A stretch of 64,000 bases of DNA from Roseibium album (lineage in GTDB: Bacteria > Pseudomonadota > Alphaproteobacteria > Rhizobiales > Stappiaceae): positions 248,001 to 312,000 of the forward strand of contig NZ_CXWE01000007.1 in assembly GCF_001404515.1 (NCBI RefSeq). Reading direction: 5' to 3'. Position 1 is the first letter of the stretch; every line of letters begins with the position of its first letter. A program made the position numbers and the translations under genes. Shown here one piece after another: positions 1,478 to 63,910 of this stretch. The notes below the pieces were generated by a model. It had not been told where the DNA came from, did not search any database, and was given only the letters and a program-made list of their open reading frames with translations.

Positions 1478-2338
1478 ATGCGCGGTATCGCGCTGATGGC
1501 GACCGGCATGTTCATGTTTTCCGCCGTTGATACAATGGCGAAGTTTCTCACTGACACGATCCATCCGTTTCAGATCGTTTGGTGCCGCCAGTTGGGTTTG
1601 TTGATTGGGGTGTTTATTCTTGTCGGCCTGAGAGGCCGGTCCGTCCTTGTCTCAGCCAATCCGAAACTGCAGATTGGGCGCGGCGCGCTTGCGGCTGTTT
1701 CCGCGACCCTCTTCATTATCGGAGTTAAGTTCGTTCCGCTCGCCGATGCGGTGGCCATAACATTTGTTGCGCCTTTCATGGTGACCGTGTTGGGCGCACT
1801 GGTTCTGCGCGAGCCGGTCGGCATTCGCAGGTGGACGGCGGTCATTATCGGTTTTGTCGGTACCCTGATTGTGATCCGCCCCGGCCTCGGTGTCCTGCAT
1901 CCCGCCGCAGGCCTGCTGGTGATCGCCGCCTCCGCATTCGCACTCCGACAGATCCTGTCGCGCATTCTTGCCGGAGGAGACGGTGCGGCGACGACAGTCG
2001 CCTACACGGCCATCGTATCCTGCGCGCTGCTGACTGTGCCAATGCTGTTCGTCTGGGAGACGCCGGACACGGGCCTTGAAATCGCCCTGTTGGTCGCGAT
2101 GGCTGTCCTGGCAGCCTTTGGGGAAACCCTGGTCATCATGGCCCTCGATGCCGCCCAGGCCGTCGTTGTCGCTCCCCTGCAGTATTCGCTTTTGATCTGG
2201 GGCACGATCTACGGCTATCTCGTCTTCGGTCAGCTTCCCGATGCATGGACCTGGCTCGGAGCACTGGTCATTGTCGCGACGGGAATTTATACCTTAAACC
2301 GAGAACGGTTGGCCTTGAGGCGAGCTGGCAAGGTGTGA
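1478..2338 (+). CDS. DMT/EamA family transporter
   Basis: A 286-residue membrane protein with about ten hydrophobic segments arranged as two EamA halves. The repeated motif (around FVAPFMVTVLGALVLREP in the first half, and the corresponding YSLLIWGTIYGYLVFGQ segment in the second) is typical of drug/metabolite transporters. The substrate cannot be read from sequence. The frame stays open upstream of this ATG, which lacks a clear Shine-Dalgarno, so the true start may be a few codons earlier. It stands alone between the GFA-like gene and the convergent GGDEF-EAL gene. Confidence 0.85.
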   Translation: MRGIALMATGMFMFSAVDTMAKFLTDTIHPFQIVWCRQLGLLIGVFILVGLRGRSVLVSANPKLQIGRGALAAVSATLFIIGVKFVPLADAVAITFVAPFMVTVLGALVLREPVGIRRWTAVIIGFVGTLIVIRPGLGVLHPAAGLLVIAASAFALRQILSRILAGGDGAATTVAYTAIVSCALLTVPMLFVWETPDTGLEIALLVAMAVLAAFGETLVIMALDAAQAVVVAPLQYSLLIWGTIYGYLVFGQLPDAWTWLGALVIVATGIYTLNRERLALRRAGKV

Positions 2339-2363
2339 TGCAGGAAATTGCCAATAAACGAAT

Positions 2364-5348
2364 TCAGGTTGTTCGCGAAGATGCCTTTGCCTGGTGTTCG
2401 TCCCGAACGCTCGCCACGGAGCTGCGTTGAAGTTCCAGAAACCTGATCAAATCAGGAAACGCCATGGGCTTTGCGAAATGGAAGCCTTGCAGTCGATCAC
2501 ATCCCAGCTTGGCGAGGATCTCGGCCTGCTCTCGCGTTTCAACGCCTTCGGCCGTGACACCCATTTCAAGTGCATGACCAATCTCGATGATCGATCGGAG
2601 CAATCGAAGACCACCACTGCCCTCTGCGACGAGTGAAACAAGGCGGCGGTCGATCTTCAGCCGCTCCGGGTTGATCCGCTGCAACGCGACAACCGACGCC
2701 CGCCCGCTTCCAAAGTCGTCTACCTCGATACCGATCCCCAGGTCTCGCAGCTGATTGAGCCGGAAAAGGAATTCGTCATCCTGTTCCTCCAGGAAAATCG
2801 TTTCAAGAAGCTCGAAACTGATTTGGCCTGAATATGCCTGGACCTGCCGGCGGATCGCGTCGATTTCACCGTCATTGACCCGGTTTTCGCTGACATTGAA
2901 GGACAGCGACAGCGGATGAGGCATCGCGCCGAATGCATGCTCGCATTCTGCGATCGCCTTTTCAAAAATGATCCGATCTATATCGGCAGCGACATTCAGG
3001 TCCGTTGCAACCGACAAAAAGGCCGCCGGTGCCAAAACACCCTTGTCAGGATGACGCCATCGTGCCAGCGCTTCAATGCCGACAACCTGTCCGGTCACCG
3101 CATTTACCTGCGGCTGATAAAACGGTTCGAAATCACCGTTTTCAATGGCAAGAAGCAGATCATCTGCCACTTCCTTGGTGTGCTGCAAATCTTCAAGGTC
3201 CGATCGATCGAAAATTCCGAGCTGACCGCGACCACGCCGCTTTGCCTTGTAGAGTGCAACGTCGGAATTTGTCAGCAGTTGGTCGACTTCGGCGAGCGGT
3301 GTACGTGCCAAGCCGATTGACGCGCCCACACGGCACACCTTGTCTTTGATACGCATGGGGCGTGACAGTGTCGCGATCAGAATGTTTGCAAGTTTCTCCG
3401 GCCGGTCTCCGTCACCCGAAACACTCAGCAGGACAACAAATTCATCTCCTCCGATGCGCGCGACTATGTCTTCGGGGGCGGCTTGATCGCGAATGCGCAT
3501 CGAAATGTCCAGAAGCACCTCGTCTCCCGCCAGGTGGCCCATCGTGTCATTGATCTGCTTGAACCGGTCGAGGTCGATGTGAAGAGCTGCGATTTCTCCT
3601 CCGTCGACACTTCGTTTTCTGACCATCTCATCGAATTTCAAAGAAAGAAACCGACGGTTGCCAAGACCGGTCAGGTCGTCATGCAATGCCTTGTAGGTAA
3701 TTTCCTGGTTCGCGGTCTCCAGTTTTCGGGAATATTCCTCCACGGCACGGCGCTGTCGAACAAGTTCTGTTGTGTCGATACGTAAGATGACCAGATCGCC
3801 GTTTTCCACGCGCGACCGCAGAATTCTGTGATGAACATCTCCGGGAAGCTCGAGGTCCTGCATCGGTTTGCTGACATCAACGCTTTGGTGCTCGTTGGAC
3901 ATCCACTCTTCTTCGCGGCCCATCGCGTTGGCAATTTTTCCGGCGCGTATTGCAATACGGGCAACATGGGTGCGGTGCATTCCAACTTCCAGATCATCCG
4001 GATTGTTGGCCATCGACATGCGGTAGGCGTCATTGCAGACGACAAGGCAGTCGTCGGCGTCATATATGACGAATGGTGCCGGATATGCATTCAGGGCTGC
4101 AATCAGCCTTGCCTGCGTGGCTTCGGCCGCCCGTTTCTGACGCACGAGCTCCGTGGAGTTCAACCGGATCACGACGTAGTCGCCATTGGACGAACGGGAT
4201 CTGAGCAGGCGATGATGGATATCTCCGTCCAGTTCAACATCCTGCCAGTCACGGTCCAGCGCATCGGCCGCCATTATGCCCCTTACCCAGGCGTCCTCCT
4301 GTCCGATGGCATCAGGGTAACGCCCGTGGCGAATGGCCGTGTGAAGCACTTCCTTCAGATGCATCCCCTCGAAAAGATCAGCGGGATCATCCGTCATTGA
4401 AGCCGCATAACCGTCGTTCCAGCAGACCAGGTTCAGGTCCTTGTCATAGATCACGATCGGGTCCGGATAGGCATTCAGCGCTGCCACGAGGCGGGCATGA
4501 ACGCGGTCGGCAGCCATTCTTTGGCGAACGATTTCGGTGGTATCGAAGCGCATGACGAGCAAATCGCCGTTGTGTGCCCGGCTGCGCACAATACGCTGGT
4601 GAACGTTCCTGTCAATTTCCACATCCGAAGCTGGTACTGCTTCCGACAGGTCAGCAAGTTGTTGGTTCAGCCAGTCCTCTTCCTGGCCCCGGGCTGCTGG
4701 AAACTTCCCGTTTTTGAGACCGATCCTCAAAAGTTCCTCGACAGTCAATCCGCTTCCGATTTCGTTCGGACGGTCCGTCAGCGAGGCCGCGAACGCCTTG
4801 TTCCAAAAGCAAAGGCGCATGTCCTTGTCATAAACCGCCACCGGTTCGGAATAGTCATCTATCGCTGATAGCAAGCGGTTTGCGGATGCTTCGGTTTCGC
4901 CGGACGGGTAACTTGCTTTTTCGGTTGAAGCGACAGTTCCCACGGTGCCTGTCTTGGTCACTTTCGACTGTTCGTTGTCGGCAAGACTGCGGTAGGTTGC
5001 ACAGACAAGCAGCCCTCCCGCGTCCGGGTTCGGAAGGAGGATGATCGAAACACTCGTGCGGACCGGCGTGCCGTCAAAGTGCACAAAACTGATCTTTTTC
5101 AGAAAAGCCTGTCGATGGACGATTGTATCGGGATTGAAGCTCGCGCCGGGTGGAAGCAGGGTTTCACCATCGTGAAAGCTGTCCATTGTCCGCCCGAGAA
5201 TGTCTTTCGAGCTGTAGCCAAAGAGCTCAGTGAATGCCTCGTTTACATGGACAAGACACGCGGATTTTGTGCCGGGCGCGAGATGCCCGATGGCAATGGC
5301 GTCGCCGGTTAACTCAATGAAGTTTTTTGTAAGTACCGAGAAATCCAT
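2364..5348 (-). CDS. Four-PAS GGDEF-EAL cyclic-di-GMP protein
   Basis: A 994-residue soluble signalling protein. It has a PAS domain at about 1-120, three more PAS domains that are clear tandem copies (about 155-280, 285-405 and 410-535), then GGDEF (about 565-720) and EAL (about 735-975). The cyclase motif is intact as ARIGGDEF. The EAL domain keeps EAL, the DDFGSG loop, LKIDR and TAEGVET, so both activities look possible. The residues five before GGDEF read APED rather than RxxD, so the inhibitory I-site seems absent. The ATG at 5348 has GAGGC upstream and is preferred to the start 13 codons earlier. Confidence 0.9.
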   Translation of the reverse strand: MDFSVLTKNFIELTGDAIAIGHLAPGTKSACLVHVNEAFTELFGYSSKDILGRTMDSFHDGETLLPPGASFNPDTIVHRQAFLKKISFVHFDGTPVRTSVSIILLPNPDAGGLLVCATYRSLADNEQSKVTKTGTVGTVASTEKASYPSGETEASANRLLSAIDDYSEPVAVYDKDMRLCFWNKAFAASLTDRPNEIGSGLTVEELLRIGLKNGKFPAARGQEEDWLNQQLADLSEAVPASDVEIDRNVHQRIVRSRAHNGDLLVMRFDTTEIVRQRMAADRVHARLVAALNAYPDPIVIYDKDLNLVCWNDGYAASMTDDPADLFEGMHLKEVLHTAIRHGRYPDAIGQEDAWVRGIMAADALDRDWQDVELDGDIHHRLLRSRSSNGDYVVIRLNSTELVRQKRAAEATQARLIAALNAYPAPFVIYDADDCLVVCNDAYRMSMANNPDDLEVGMHRTHVARIAIRAGKIANAMGREEEWMSNEHQSVDVSKPMQDLELPGDVHHRILRSRVENGDLVILRIDTTELVRQRRAVEEYSRKLETANQEITYKALHDDLTGLGNRRFLSLKFDEMVRKRSVDGGEIAALHIDLDRFKQINDTMGHLAGDEVLLDISMRIRDQAAPEDIVARIGGDEFVVLLSVSGDGDRPEKLANILIATLSRPMRIKDKVCRVGASIGLARTPLAEVDQLLTNSDVALYKAKRRGRGQLGIFDRSDLEDLQHTKEVADDLLLAIENGDFEPFYQPQVNAVTGQVVGIEALARWRHPDKGVLAPAAFLSVATDLNVAADIDRIIFEKAIAECEHAFGAMPHPLSLSFNVSENRVNDGEIDAIRRQVQAYSGQISFELLETIFLEEQDDEFLFRLNQLRDLGIGIEVDDFGSGRASVVALQRINPERLKIDRRLVSLVAEGSGGLRLLRSIIEIGHALEMGVTAEGVETREQAEILAKLGCDRLQGFHFAKPMAFPDLIRFLELQRSSVASVRDEHQAKASSRTT

Positions 5349-60199: not shown

Positions 60200-61606
60200 T
60201 CACGGCTCATCGGTCGAAGCGTTCGGCGCAATATTCTGGTTGGAGCTGAACAGGTTATGCGGGTCGTACCGACGCTTGATCGACGTGAGACGATCGAGGT
60301 TGCCGCCATATGCGCTGGAAATGTCCCCGGAGCGCTCGGCAATGAAATTCACGTAGGAGCCGGGAACTGCATGGTCAGCGATCCGTCTCGAGGCGGATTT
60401 CAGCCATCCGGTCATGGCGGTGTCTGCCGACGGGTCGCGCCAGCGAACACCCGGTGTTGAAACGAAGGAAACATCGCGATGAGGAAACGCGGTCGTGTCG
60501 TTATCGACGTCCGCGACAGCACCTCCCAGAAGGCAGATCAGCAGTTCGGATTCGGCTGTCGGCAGTTCTGGTGCCATATCGACCAGTGTGTCGATCAACG
60601 AGGGTGTCAGCGCACGATGATTGTGTGTGCGCCAGTAGTTTCGCGCACCAAAATCATAGGCCTGGTCGAGAAAACTTTGCGCCTCCGTGTAAGCGCGTGG
60701 CGCAAGGGCGCTGCCGACCGGCTCGACTCCACCGTAAAGATGCCGCACGACGCTGTATCCCGCGTCCGGTGGTCCTGCGAAGAACTGCATCAGTGTCAGC
60801 ACTTTCGCCCCATGAAGATTGTCCGGTAGGGCAGGGGTTGCGGGTGCCGTCATCAGGTTGGCCCAGACACAGGATTCGCGGGGCAGCATCGGGGCGTGTT
60901 CGGCGTAGGTTGCCAGAACCGTCCTTGCATCTTTCAGGGCAAAGAAAGTGGGTCCGAAAAGGACAGTGGGGTCGAGTGCGTGAAGCTGGAACGTGAATTC
61001 GGTGACGACCCCAAAATTGCCCCCACCACCGCGAATGGCCCAGAAGAGGTCGGTGTTCTCGTCGTCTGAACACATCACGATTGATCCGTCGGCAAGAACG
61101 ATTTCGGCGGACAGAAGATTGTCGACGGCCAGCCCGTGCAGTCTGGCCAACCAGCCAAAGCCACCGCCAAGGGTAAGTCCGGCAACGCCGGTCGACGAGA
61201 CAACACCTCCGGGTGTCGCCATGCCCTGTGTTTGCGCAGCTGCATCAAACTGCCTCCATGTGGCACCGCCACCCACACGCGCAGTCCGGTTAACTGAATT
61301 GATCCGGACACTGTTCAGCGCCGACATGTCGATCATCAGCGCGCCATTTGCTACCGCCGAACCCGCGATATTGTGTCCACCGCCTTTCACACATAAGGCC
61401 AATCCCCGCTCCGCTGCCGTTTTGACAGCACTGGAGACATCTTCCGGGTGGCGCGCCGGCAGAATTGCTATCGGTTTGCGGTCAATTGCGGCGTTCCAGA
61501 CCTGTCGTCTTTCATCAAATTCCGGATTGCCTGGAAAAACGGCATCGGAGCCGAGACGCGCTGCCAGCAAGTTCAGTCGAGTTTCTTCCATGATGCCATC
61601 TGCCAT
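60200..61606 (-). CDS. FAD-binding oxidoreductase of the berberine-bridge-enzyme type
   Basis: A 468-residue PCMH/BBE flavoprotein. H78 in KGGGHNIAG is the usual site of covalent FAD attachment. IRGGGGNFGVVTEF lacks the cysteine of bicovalent family members. The C-terminal YDPHNLFSSNQNI is the BBE motif. It probably oxidises a sugar or other alcohol with oxygen or a cytochrome as acceptor. It heads an operon with two secreted proteins and is divergent from the HxlR regulator at 61755. Confidence 0.88.
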   Translation of the reverse strand: MADGIMEETRLNLLAARLGSDAVFPGNPEFDERRQVWNAAIDRKPIAILPARHPEDVSSAVKTAAERGLALCVKGGGHNIAGSAVANGALMIDMSALNSVRINSVNRTARVGGGATWRQFDAAAQTQGMATPGGVVSSTGVAGLTLGGGFGWLARLHGLAVDNLLSAEIVLADGSIVMCSDDENTDLFWAIRGGGGNFGVVTEFTFQLHALDPTVLFGPTFFALKDARTVLATYAEHAPMLPRESCVWANLMTAPATPALPDNLHGAKVLTLMQFFAGPPDAGYSVVRHLYGGVEPVGSALAPRAYTEAQSFLDQAYDFGARNYWRTHNHRALTPSLIDTLVDMAPELPTAESELLICLLGGAVADVDNDTTAFPHRDVSFVSTPGVRWRDPSADTAMTGWLKSASRRIADHAVPGSYVNFIAERSGDISSAYGGNLDRLTSIKRRYDPHNLFSSNQNIAPNASTDEP

Positions 61607-61754: not shown

Positions 61755-62486
61755 ATGCCGTACAAAGGTTATGGACAATACTGCCCGCTCGCCCTGGCTG
61801 CTGAAGTCCTCTGTGAACGCTGGACTTTGCTGGTGATTAGCCGGGTGATCGACGGGTGCACACGCTTCAATGAAATTCATCGCGGCGTTCCGAAGATCTC
61901 GGCCACTTTGCTCAGTCAGCGGTTGTCCAGTCTGGAGCATGCCGGCTTGATTACGCGCCGGGCCCTGGAAAACGGCCGGGGATTTTCATACGAATTGACG
62001 GATGCCGGGCGTGAACTCGATCCGATCATCATGAGCCTTGCCGTTTGGGGTCAGAAATGGTCGCGGGATATGGAAACCGAAGATCTTGATCCGGCATTCC
62101 TGGCGTGGAGCATGCACACAAGGCTGAATGTCGAGGCCATGCCCGCGCACCGTATTGTCATGGAATTTGCCTTTTCCGGGACGCACAAGGGCTTGAGCCG
62201 CTTCTGGCTTGTGGTTGAAGACGGTCGCGTCGACATGTGCCTTAAGTATCCCGGTCTGGAGGTGGATGTCGCCATCTCTTCGGATATCAGGTGTTTTTTT
62301 CAAGCAGAAGACGGCATACGAGATCTGCGCAGCGAAATTGCCAGCGGTCAGGTGTCCGTGTCTGGCTCGACGGCCTATCGCAGGGCACTGCCCGACTGGT
62401 TGATGTTGAGCGCATTGGCACAATTTCCCAGACAAACCGGTAACGAGGCAGGTGCCGGCGAACCGCATATTGCGCGGACGGGTTAA
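61755..62486 (+). CDS. HxlR-family regulator, sequence corrupted by sequencing adapter
   Basis: About 243 residues as assembled. The N-terminal domain (about 10-100) is a clear HxlR winged helix: YCPLALAAEVLCERWTLLVI and TLLSQRLSSLEHAGLI. The C-terminal part is a SCP2-like or ligand domain. Residues about 179-192 (RCFFQAEDGIRD) are encoded by T7 plus the Illumina P7 adapter at 62294-62324, so the native residues there are lost. GAGGAG precedes the ATG. It is divergent from the FAD oxidoreductase operon and is its likely regulator. Confidence 0.85.
   Translation: MPYKGYGQYCPLALAAEVLCERWTLLVISRVIDGCTRFNEIHRGVPKISATLLSQRLSSLEHAGLITRRALENGRGFSYELTDAGRELDPIIMSLAVWGQKWSRDMETEDLDPAFLAWSMHTRLNVEAMPAHRIVMEFAFSGTHKGLSRFWLVVEDGRVDMCLKYPGLEVDVAISSDIRCFFQAEDGIRDLRSEIASGQVSVSGSTAYRRALPDWLMLSALAQFPRQTGNEAGAGEPHIARTG
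62294..62324 (+). other. Illumina P7 adapter with T-linker embedded in the assembly
   Basis: Seven T residues (62294-62300) are followed by a 24-base exact match to the Illumina P7 flow-cell oligonucleotide (62301-62324; begins caagcagaagacgg, ends tacgagat). In the forward frame it encodes FFQAEDGIRD, in another FFKQKTAYEI, both known contamination peptides. It is not biological sequence. Confidence 0.97.
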
Positions 62487-62558: not shown

Positions 62559-62603
62559 GCAGCGGACCGGAGTGCAGCGGACCGGAGTGCTGCAGACCGG
62601 CGT
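62559..62603. repeat. 15-bp tandem repeat, three units
   Basis: Two identical units GCAGCGGACCGGAGT and a third with three changes lie head to tail between the HxlR and DHFR-like genes. Confidence 0.75.
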
Positions 62604-62797: not shown

Positions 62798-63331
62798 GTG
62801 CCGACCGGTCACACGATGATGGCAATGTCGCTTGATGGTTTTGTCGCGCGAAAGGATCACACCCTCGATTGGTTGATGAAGCTCGACACCGAGGGTGAAG
62901 ACTACGGATTTGCCGCTTTTCAGAACAGCATCGATGTCATCGTGATGGGCTCCGGCTCCTTCAGGACGGTCCTGGGATTTGGCGAATGGCCGTATCGGAA
63001 ACCGGTCATCGTAATGAGCAGGTCACTTGCCGATGATGAGATCCCCAAAGACGTGAAGTCCAAGGTCGAGCTGAGCCGGCTCTCACCGGCCGAACTCATG
63101 TCGCGTCTCGGTGAGCGTGGTATTGGCCGGGTCTATGTGGACGGCGGCGCTATCATCCGATCGTTCATGCGCGAAGGCCTGATTGCAGACATGCGGGTTG
63201 CGATTGCTCCTGTTCTCATTGGTGAAGGTATCCGCATGTTCGGAGAACTGGATCGTGACATCGACCTGAGACTCGAAAGCGTGGACCGGTTCAAGTCGGG
63301 ACTGATCCATATGTACTACGTGGTGATTTGA
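62798..63331 (+). CDS. Dihydrofolate reductase family (RibD C-terminal-like) protein
   Basis: A 177-residue protein of the RibD-C/DHFR fold: MAMSLDGFVARKDHTLDWL at the start, VIVMGSGSFRTVL around residue 50, and VYVDGGAIIRSFMREGLI around residue 115. Such stand-alone members are NADPH-dependent reductases of unknown substrate. It starts with GTG after GAGGAGG. It ends 3 bases before the TetR gene, so the two are one operon. Confidence 0.87.
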   Translation: MPTGHTMMAMSLDGFVARKDHTLDWLMKLDTEGEDYGFAAFQNSIDVIVMGSGSFRTVLGFGEWPYRKPVIVMSRSLADDEIPKDVKSKVELSRLSPAELMSRLGERGIGRVYVDGGAIIRSFMREGLIADMRVAIAPVLIGEGIRMFGELDRDIDLRLESVDRFKSGLIHMYYVVI

Positions 63332-63334
63332 GTC

Positions 63335-63910
63335 ATGTCGTCAGGCAGGCTCATAGGGCGTCCGCAGAAGGGCAGTCGCTCCATTTCCAGGGAACATATA
63401 CTTTCAACCGCACTTCCGTTGCTCAATGAGCAAGGTTTGGAAGCAGTGTCTTTTCGGCGTTTGGCCGATGCGCTGAACGTGACCGCGATGGCGATCAAAT
63501 ACCATGTCGGCAGCCACAGGAGTTTGATTGCCGCGCTGATACGAACCGCTTTCGAGGGTACCCTTACTCATATCGAAGGCAACACCCCGGAAGAACGTCT
63601 CAGACACATACTCTCAACTTACTGCACCCGGGCCTTGGAAAATGCGAACGTTGTGCGCTGCATCCTGAACGATCCATCCTTGATGAGCGGCGAGGTCGTT
63701 ACGGTCACGGAAGAGATCCGGAAAAACACCAGAATGCTTAACGATGGCGACGAGCAGGACGTGCTGCTCAATCTGCTGGTCGACTACACACATGGCTTTG
63801 TTTTTTCCGCAGTTGCAGCGCCGTCAAATCATGGTCTGACCCTGGACGATTATCTGCGGAGTGTCGATTGGGTGCTGAAAGCAGGTCAGTCCGCACAAGT
63901 TTCAAATTGA
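63335..63910 (+). CDS. TetR-family transcriptional regulator
   Basis: A 191-residue regulator with an N-terminal TetR helix-turn-helix (ISREHILSTALPLLNEQGLEAVSFRRLADALNV region, residues about 18-60) and a helical ligand domain. It lies directly after the DHFR-like gene and probably represses both through the TATACACTGTATA palindrome. Effector unknown. Nothing recognisable follows to the window end. Confidence 0.88.
   Translation: MSSGRLIGRPQKGSRSISREHILSTALPLLNEQGLEAVSFRRLADALNVTAMAIKYHVGSHRSLIAALIRTAFEGTLTHIEGNTPEERLRHILSTYCTRALENANVVRCILNDPSLMSGEVVTVTEEIRKNTRMLNDGDEQDVLLNLLVDYTHGFVFSAVAAPSNHGLTLDDYLRSVDWVLKAGQSAQVSN

Follow-up and report, generated by a model that had tools for sequence, protein, structure and literature searches.

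An Illumina P7 sequence written in register into an HxlR-family gene of Roseibium album, a probable product of oligonucleotide mispriming

A P7 sequence within a regulator gene

The deposited assembly of Roseibium album carries, within a gene encoding an HxlR-family regulator, a perfect copy of an Illumina flow-cell oligonucleotide that replaces native bases in register, and the nearest orthologous gene holds the last 13 bases of the same oligonucleotide at exactly that place. This stretch is almost certainly a laboratory artefact of one kind or another and not biology, and mispriming by an oligonucleotide, at whatever step it took place, very probably produced it.

The gene lies on the forward strand at 61755-62486 of the window, by which we mean the whole stretch of 64,000 bases that was analysed. 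Its product of 243 amino acids was assigned to the helix-turn-helix regulators of the HxlR family on the basis of PF01638 (residues 18-104, E = 7.6e-22, 77.4 bits against a Pfam cut-off of 20.8) and of seven orthologs (L003-L009) with 71-97% identity. Positions 62301-62324 of the same strand are identical in 24 of 24 bases, with no mismatch, to the Illumina P7 sequence (CAAGCAGAAGACGGCATACGAGAT), and a run of seven T (62294-62300) stands directly 5' of them. The initial annotation was therefore right in reporting an exact P7 match of 24 bases after a T-run inside an HxlR-family coding sequence, as it was in stating that the reading frame stays open. The neighbouring genes are ordinary, encoding a FAD-binding/berberine-type protein (60200-61606, on the opposite strand to the HxlR gene), a RibD_C-domain protein (62798-63331) and a TetR-type regulator (63335-63910). 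Between the HxlR and RibD_C genes, inspection by eye showed two tandem copies of gcagcggaccggagt (62559-62588).

No second match to P7 was found in the window with up to three mismatches, nor any match in 100 shuffles, and in the complete assembly of 6,901,692 bases this site (G000:C7:310301-310324) is the only one with up to two mismatches; on these results chance was rejected as the source of the match. The site is far from the ends of its contig of 413,408 bases. Native coding sequence follows P7 at once, with neither an index nor a read-2 primer site, while the whole assembly contains no copy of P5 (22 bases, up to three mismatches) and lacks the TruSeq core 13-mer AGATCGGAAGAGC.

Extent of the overwritten stretch

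Orthologs were sought in 101 genomes, that of the window included, and 89 of them gave a match. The nearest ortholog (L003, from genome G030 of the same genus, with 97% protein and 95% DNA identity) contains no P7 and aligns with all 732 bases of the gene without a gap. Its 34 mismatches are distributed unevenly, 10 of them falling within the 31 bases of 62294-62324 and 24 within the 701 bases elsewhere (Fisher P = 2.7e-7), and the patch positions that differ run from 62292 through 62311. Such a comparison had been named as a check by the initial annotation, whose view that the native codons were probably replaced is borne out: they were replaced and not interrupted, the native version being of equal length and differing over 62292-62311; the residues 3' of the patch align with the orthologs, in agreement with the statement that the protein resumes sensibly there.

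At 62312-62324 the sequence of L003 is CGGCATACGAGAT, identical to the window and, in register, to the 13 bases at the 3' end of P7. Because this adapter-free ortholog is identical over the segment, we regard 62312-62324 and the GIRD residues as native-like and restrict the overwrite to approximately 62292-62311; judged by this alignment, about half of the apparent adapter is native-like. The extent first proposed for the artefact, 62294-62324, was correct in that adapter sequence is present there, but the departure from L003 spans 62292-62311 and the last 13 bases are native-like. Similarly, the supposed false peptide FFQAEDGIRD is false only in part: five residues differ at the patch (RCFFQAEDGIRD in the window and RRFVEAWRGIRD in L003, or more widely RCFFQAEDGIRDL and RRFVEAWRGIRDL), but GIRD is found in L003 too. 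The warning that any claim about the C-terminal domain would be artefactual is too broad, since only 24 of 701 bases differ outside 62294-62324.

Three segments can be distinguished in this region, all on the forward strand. The eleven bases at 62301-62311 correspond to the 5' part of P7 and differ from L003 at seven positions, and they would be the overwritten part of the oligonucleotide; CGGCATACGAGAT at 62312-62324, at once the 3' end of P7 and ortholog sequence, is the proposed mispriming site. We interpret the seven T at 62294-62300 as what is left of the T linker at the 5' end of a surface-bound P7 oligonucleotide, considering the sequence and the lengths of T-runs elsewhere. Illumina grafted oligonucleotides carry a spacer of ten T, so that ten would be expected here in place of the seven found plus a lone T at 62292 flanked by G at 62291 and 62293. 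The edge of the patch is uncertain at these three positions, 62291-62293, where the alignment places G-T-G against G-C-G in L003: the T at 62292 may have been left behind by the T linker or may reflect divergence between strains, and the G-T-G would suit either a fading T10 signal or divergence.

Could the stretch be genuine DNA of this strain, arisen by chance or by engineering? The open frame agrees with such an origin, and a natural-looking sequence close to P7 does exist in an E. coli gene annotated asnB (L293), which from its reading looks like a native P7 lookalike and which matches, within E. coli, only its own record. Nevertheless, we consider this origin extremely improbable, given the 24/24 identity together with the T-run, and given that drift is an implausible source of eleven further exact bases beside a match of 13. 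The replaced residues, moreover, include a Trp that occurs in 21 of 25 aligned homologs (counted by hand). Six other close orthologs (L004-L009) read RRFVE[AS]WRG[MLF]RD at the same place, and genuine divergence of the gene is disfavoured by the seven orthologs at 71-97% identity.

Proposed mispriming on native DNA that resembles P7

Scored against the last 13 bases of P7, the native site stands alone among 7434 positions in L003 in reaching 13/13, the next best reaching 10. The 11-mer GCATACGAGAT, contained in this 13-base match, has a single copy in the R. album assembly and a single copy in G030, in both cases at the HxlR gene. Since GCATACGAGAT is single in the assembly, the oligonucleotide sits on the sole place with a match of at least 11 bases to its 3' end. 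By simple arithmetic, about 0.2 matches of 13 bases are expected in 6.9 Mb, counting both strands and assuming uniform base composition.

We propose that the native HxlR-family gene contained, by chance, 13 bases identical to the 3' end of P7, at which the P7 oligonucleotide may have primed during cluster amplification, both the priming and its place on the flow cell being inferred. Truncated molecules so formed would carry P7 and the T linker instead of the native bases upstream, and clusters containing truncated and full-length molecules together could be read as native sequence, P7, linker, and native sequence again in register. A mixed cluster is proposed because a molecule that ends at the oligonucleotide cannot resume native sequence in register. 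The assembler or a polisher would then have taken the mixed version, overwriting 62292-62311 base for base and keeping length and frame. Mispriming at a native 3' match would explain the position, the register and the open frame, and we judge the whole chain, from flow-cell P7 mispriming through the mixed cluster to an in-register overwrite in the consensus, to be likely.

Mispriming by P7 could also have occurred in library PCR and not on the flow cell, the in-register join being made by the assembler or polisher. A P7 PCR primer would be served equally by the identical 3'-end match, the assembler could supply the join, and the T-run does not separate the two settings, given that it also precedes P7 at ordinary read-through sites. 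Copies of such a PCR product, however, all end at the oligonucleotide, so that native sequence resuming in register after the T-run is unexpected, and this resumption was observed in the window and at five other sites (L110, L199, L168, L174 and L286). For this reason we find priming in PCR rather unlikely and prefer mispriming on the flow cell.

P7 sites in other genomes and phages

Ordinary read-through contamination has a different form. P7 preceded by at least seven T was found at no fewer than 122 sites in genome_contigs, at least 114 of them followed by an index and the read-2 primer site and at least 8 not, and at no fewer than 121 sites in viral_contigs (at least 115 and at least 6, respectively). 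Altogether, index and read-2 site follow P7 in 229 of the 243 sites among the matches listed in these two sets. The 8 other genome_contigs sites among the matches listed include three index-free ones at the beginning of a contig (L061, L083, L093) and one that is internal (L110); L043, L055 and L072, with a damaged index or read-2 site, and L092, which ends early, were not counted as index-free. Before P7, runs of 10 or 11 T were the commonest (53 of 122 genome_contigs sites among the matches listed, with a survey pattern that required at least seven T), lengths that suit a ten-T spacer on the surface oligonucleotide. Among genomes of the same order, 4 of 397 carry P7, with 13 sites in all, and at 12 of these P7 is followed by an index or by paired-end adapter sequence, the window's site being the sole exception. 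One of these genomes (G408) has ten P7 sites (L155, L157-L165), none of them more than 11 bases from a contig end, and several different indexes follow them.

The initial annotation took the stretch for plain adapter assembled into the gene, a reading that does not agree with the missing index and read-2 site or with native DNA that matches the 3' end of the oligonucleotide. A random join of adapter is disfavoured on the same grounds and by the register. In its more general form, with ordinary adapter contamination joined by the assembler and equal length and open frame due to luck, this explanation can draw on the documented contamination of assemblies by adapters (in the available text of PMC11536531) and on the 229 of 243 sites of the ordinary kind among the matches listed. 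It would nevertheless leave the in-register replacement and the missing index or read-2 primer site after P7 unaccounted for, it would make a coincidence of a 13-base native 3' match, of which about 0.2 are expected in 6.9 Mb, and it suits poorly a site that is not near a contig end. We hold it to be very unlikely.

Among 5,426 E. coli genomes there are nine P7-like places, of which L287, L288, L290, L291, L292 and L294 have index or read-2 sequence, damaged in part, and the others are L286, L289 and L293. Five of the index-bearing places served as controls, L290 (index present and damaged), for which there is no K-12 alignment, being left out; in these controls the native gap has a best exact 3' match of 3-5 bases and a best 13-base score of 7-9. 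Several of these remnants coincide with irregular annotations: in NZ_AP046542.1 (L288) a library adapter remnant lies between cheB and cheY, the latter annotated with 342 bases against 390 in K-12; in NZ_CP054388.1 (L294) a library adapter remnant lies at the start of kdpE, annotated with 756 bases against 678 in K-12; and in NZ_AP040990.1 (L287) an adapter lies between phoU and bglG, with bglG annotated as N-terminally incomplete.

Among the matches listed, index-free P7 sites number 13, namely the window, L061, L083, L093, L110, L168, L174, L196, L199, L212, L219, L286 and L289. A native counterpart was sought for 8 of them, the window, L110, L168, L174, L199, L219, L286 and L289, and was found for all but L219; a P7-like native site is present in 6 of these 7, the window included.

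In Paenibacillus sp. GM2 (L110, NZ_LN831279.1) native and overwritten copies lie 128 bases apart, both with CGGCATACGAGAT; 27 overwritten bases, 15 of them T, correspond to 27 native ones, native-like sequence is found again upstream, and the assembly appears to contain a false tandem duplication here. Over 1500 of 1500 bases, Klebsiella phage Marfa (L199) can be aligned with phage HMGUkp2 (L302) without a gap, the native site ending in CGGCATACGAGAT, in a comparison with 2 of 1437 matching phage records. The annotation of the Marfa RefSeq entry (L564, NC_048798.1 97071-101570, reverse complement) lacks a portal CDS between its prohead and tail genes, at 1976-3540. The index-free P7 overwrite falls within this stretch, for which a portal gene is annotated in two relatives.

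For L168 and L174 the phage matches listed cover only the adapter, and relatives were drawn from viral_contigs. The closest relative of L168 (L305) has 7 exact bases and a score of 10/13, others being weaker (L306 8/13, L307 9/13). Of the 11 relatives of L174, 6 were compared and 4 span the site. L310 and L311 have a 12-base 3' match, whereas in L309 and L313 the match is of 8 bases; DNA identity is approximately 62%, and small gaps close to the site offset one another. A prophage gene of E. coli 2024CK-00535 (L286) and its counterpart L301 are of equal length, with ten T in the former. The native site is P7-like over 22 alignment columns with one 1-base gap, a similarity reached by none of 1951 other windows, whereas without a gap the exact 3' match is 2 bases and the 13-base score of 8 is reached by 14 of 2038 positions.

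The kdpA gene of E. coli NZ_LR882052.1 (L289) has a 13-base insertion relative to K-12, with an index-free P7 missing its final two bases. The native kdpA counterpart has no site resembling P7, and this case does not fit the in-register pattern. In the record (L289, 501-531) kdpA is annotated as frameshifted, and the insertion holds the T-run and most of P7. For the viral contig L219, the best 6 of 37 phage matches cover the adapter only, and a search of viral_contigs returned only the contig itself.

P5 sites

On the proposed mechanism P5 would be expected to behave like P7, and P5 sites were tested as well. In viral_contigs there are 82 sites with at least seven T followed by P5, 73 of which continue into the read-1 primer site and 9 of which do not. 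The closest relatives of L338 (L484 and L485) align without a gap over 1092 and 1089 bases, and their sequence at the site includes GATCTACAC, identical to the nine bases with which P5 ends. Their 14-base score of 10/14 is attained at 4 of 3346 positions in L484 and at 3 of 3346 in L485. More distant relatives have exact 3' matches of 0-6 bases among the matches listed (14 rows, from the best 16 of 79 relatives compared). The single relative of L377 (L482, 78%) also has GATCTACAC at the site, with two alignment gaps nearby and a score of 9/14 that 9 of 1858 positions reach. Relatives of L335 are too distant, with at most 65% protein identity, and 4 of the 18 compared, out of 79, span the site. 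For L332 and L349 none of the phage matches listed covers the site, apart from the record of L332 itself. The search for counterparts covered these five among P5 sites that also include L328, L330, L372 and L398. On these sequences, the P5 evidence is supportive of mispriming but weaker than that from P7.

Taken with the P7 sites, these cases give reasonable grounds to think that some assembly errors form a class of their own, in which surface P7 and P5 oligonucleotides misprime at native matches to their 3' ends and finished genomes are overwritten base for base with the oligonucleotide and its T spacer. Two features expected of this class are seen in the window, a native 3' match of 13/13 in L003 and a replacement in register that is flanked by native sequence on both sides.

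Significance and comparison with known systems

As biology there is nothing new here, since a regulator gene has merely been misread over one stretch, and the importance of the finding lies in data quality. An in-frame error of this kind would pass checks of length and frame, and similar events are seen in unrelated genomes and phages. If the proposed class is real, such errors can survive those checks because length is kept, and false peptides would recur in proteins that are not related to one another, at places that could be predicted from nothing more than the genome sequence. The positions of the overwrites seem to follow a simple rule, namely that native DNA matches P7 or P5 at the 3' end. 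Recurring peptides are FFFQAEDGIRD in L168 and DLGGRRIIKKK in L335, L330 and L377. Term searches of the open-licence literature found no paper evidently devoted to mispriming by flow-cell oligonucleotides written into assemblies, and we do not claim that the phenomenon is unpublished.

Contamination of microbial assemblies by sequencing adapters is described, in the available text of PMC11536531, from counts of the TruSeq core AGATCGGAAGAG, which is concentrated at contig ends. The window resembles those cases in that Illumina oligonucleotide sequence is present in a deposited assembly, and it differs from what that text describes in that the site is deep within a 413-kb contig, P7 has no index, AGATCGGAAGAGC is absent and the overwrite is in register. 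A screen based on the TruSeq core only would miss this site, because the core is absent from the assembly.

Distinct sequences that lie at small distances can merge in one flow-cell cluster and give a mixed read, according to the accessible part of PMC3163567. The clusters proposed here would likewise hold two sequence populations, but, unlike those described there, both would come from a single template, one of them through internal priming by the surface oligonucleotide. Finally, the portion of PMC11123353 at hand describes immobilised bridge primers that consist of T10 plus a P7-like or a P5-like sequence, a spacer that matches what the T-run in the window would require, although on a research surface and not on an Illumina flow cell.
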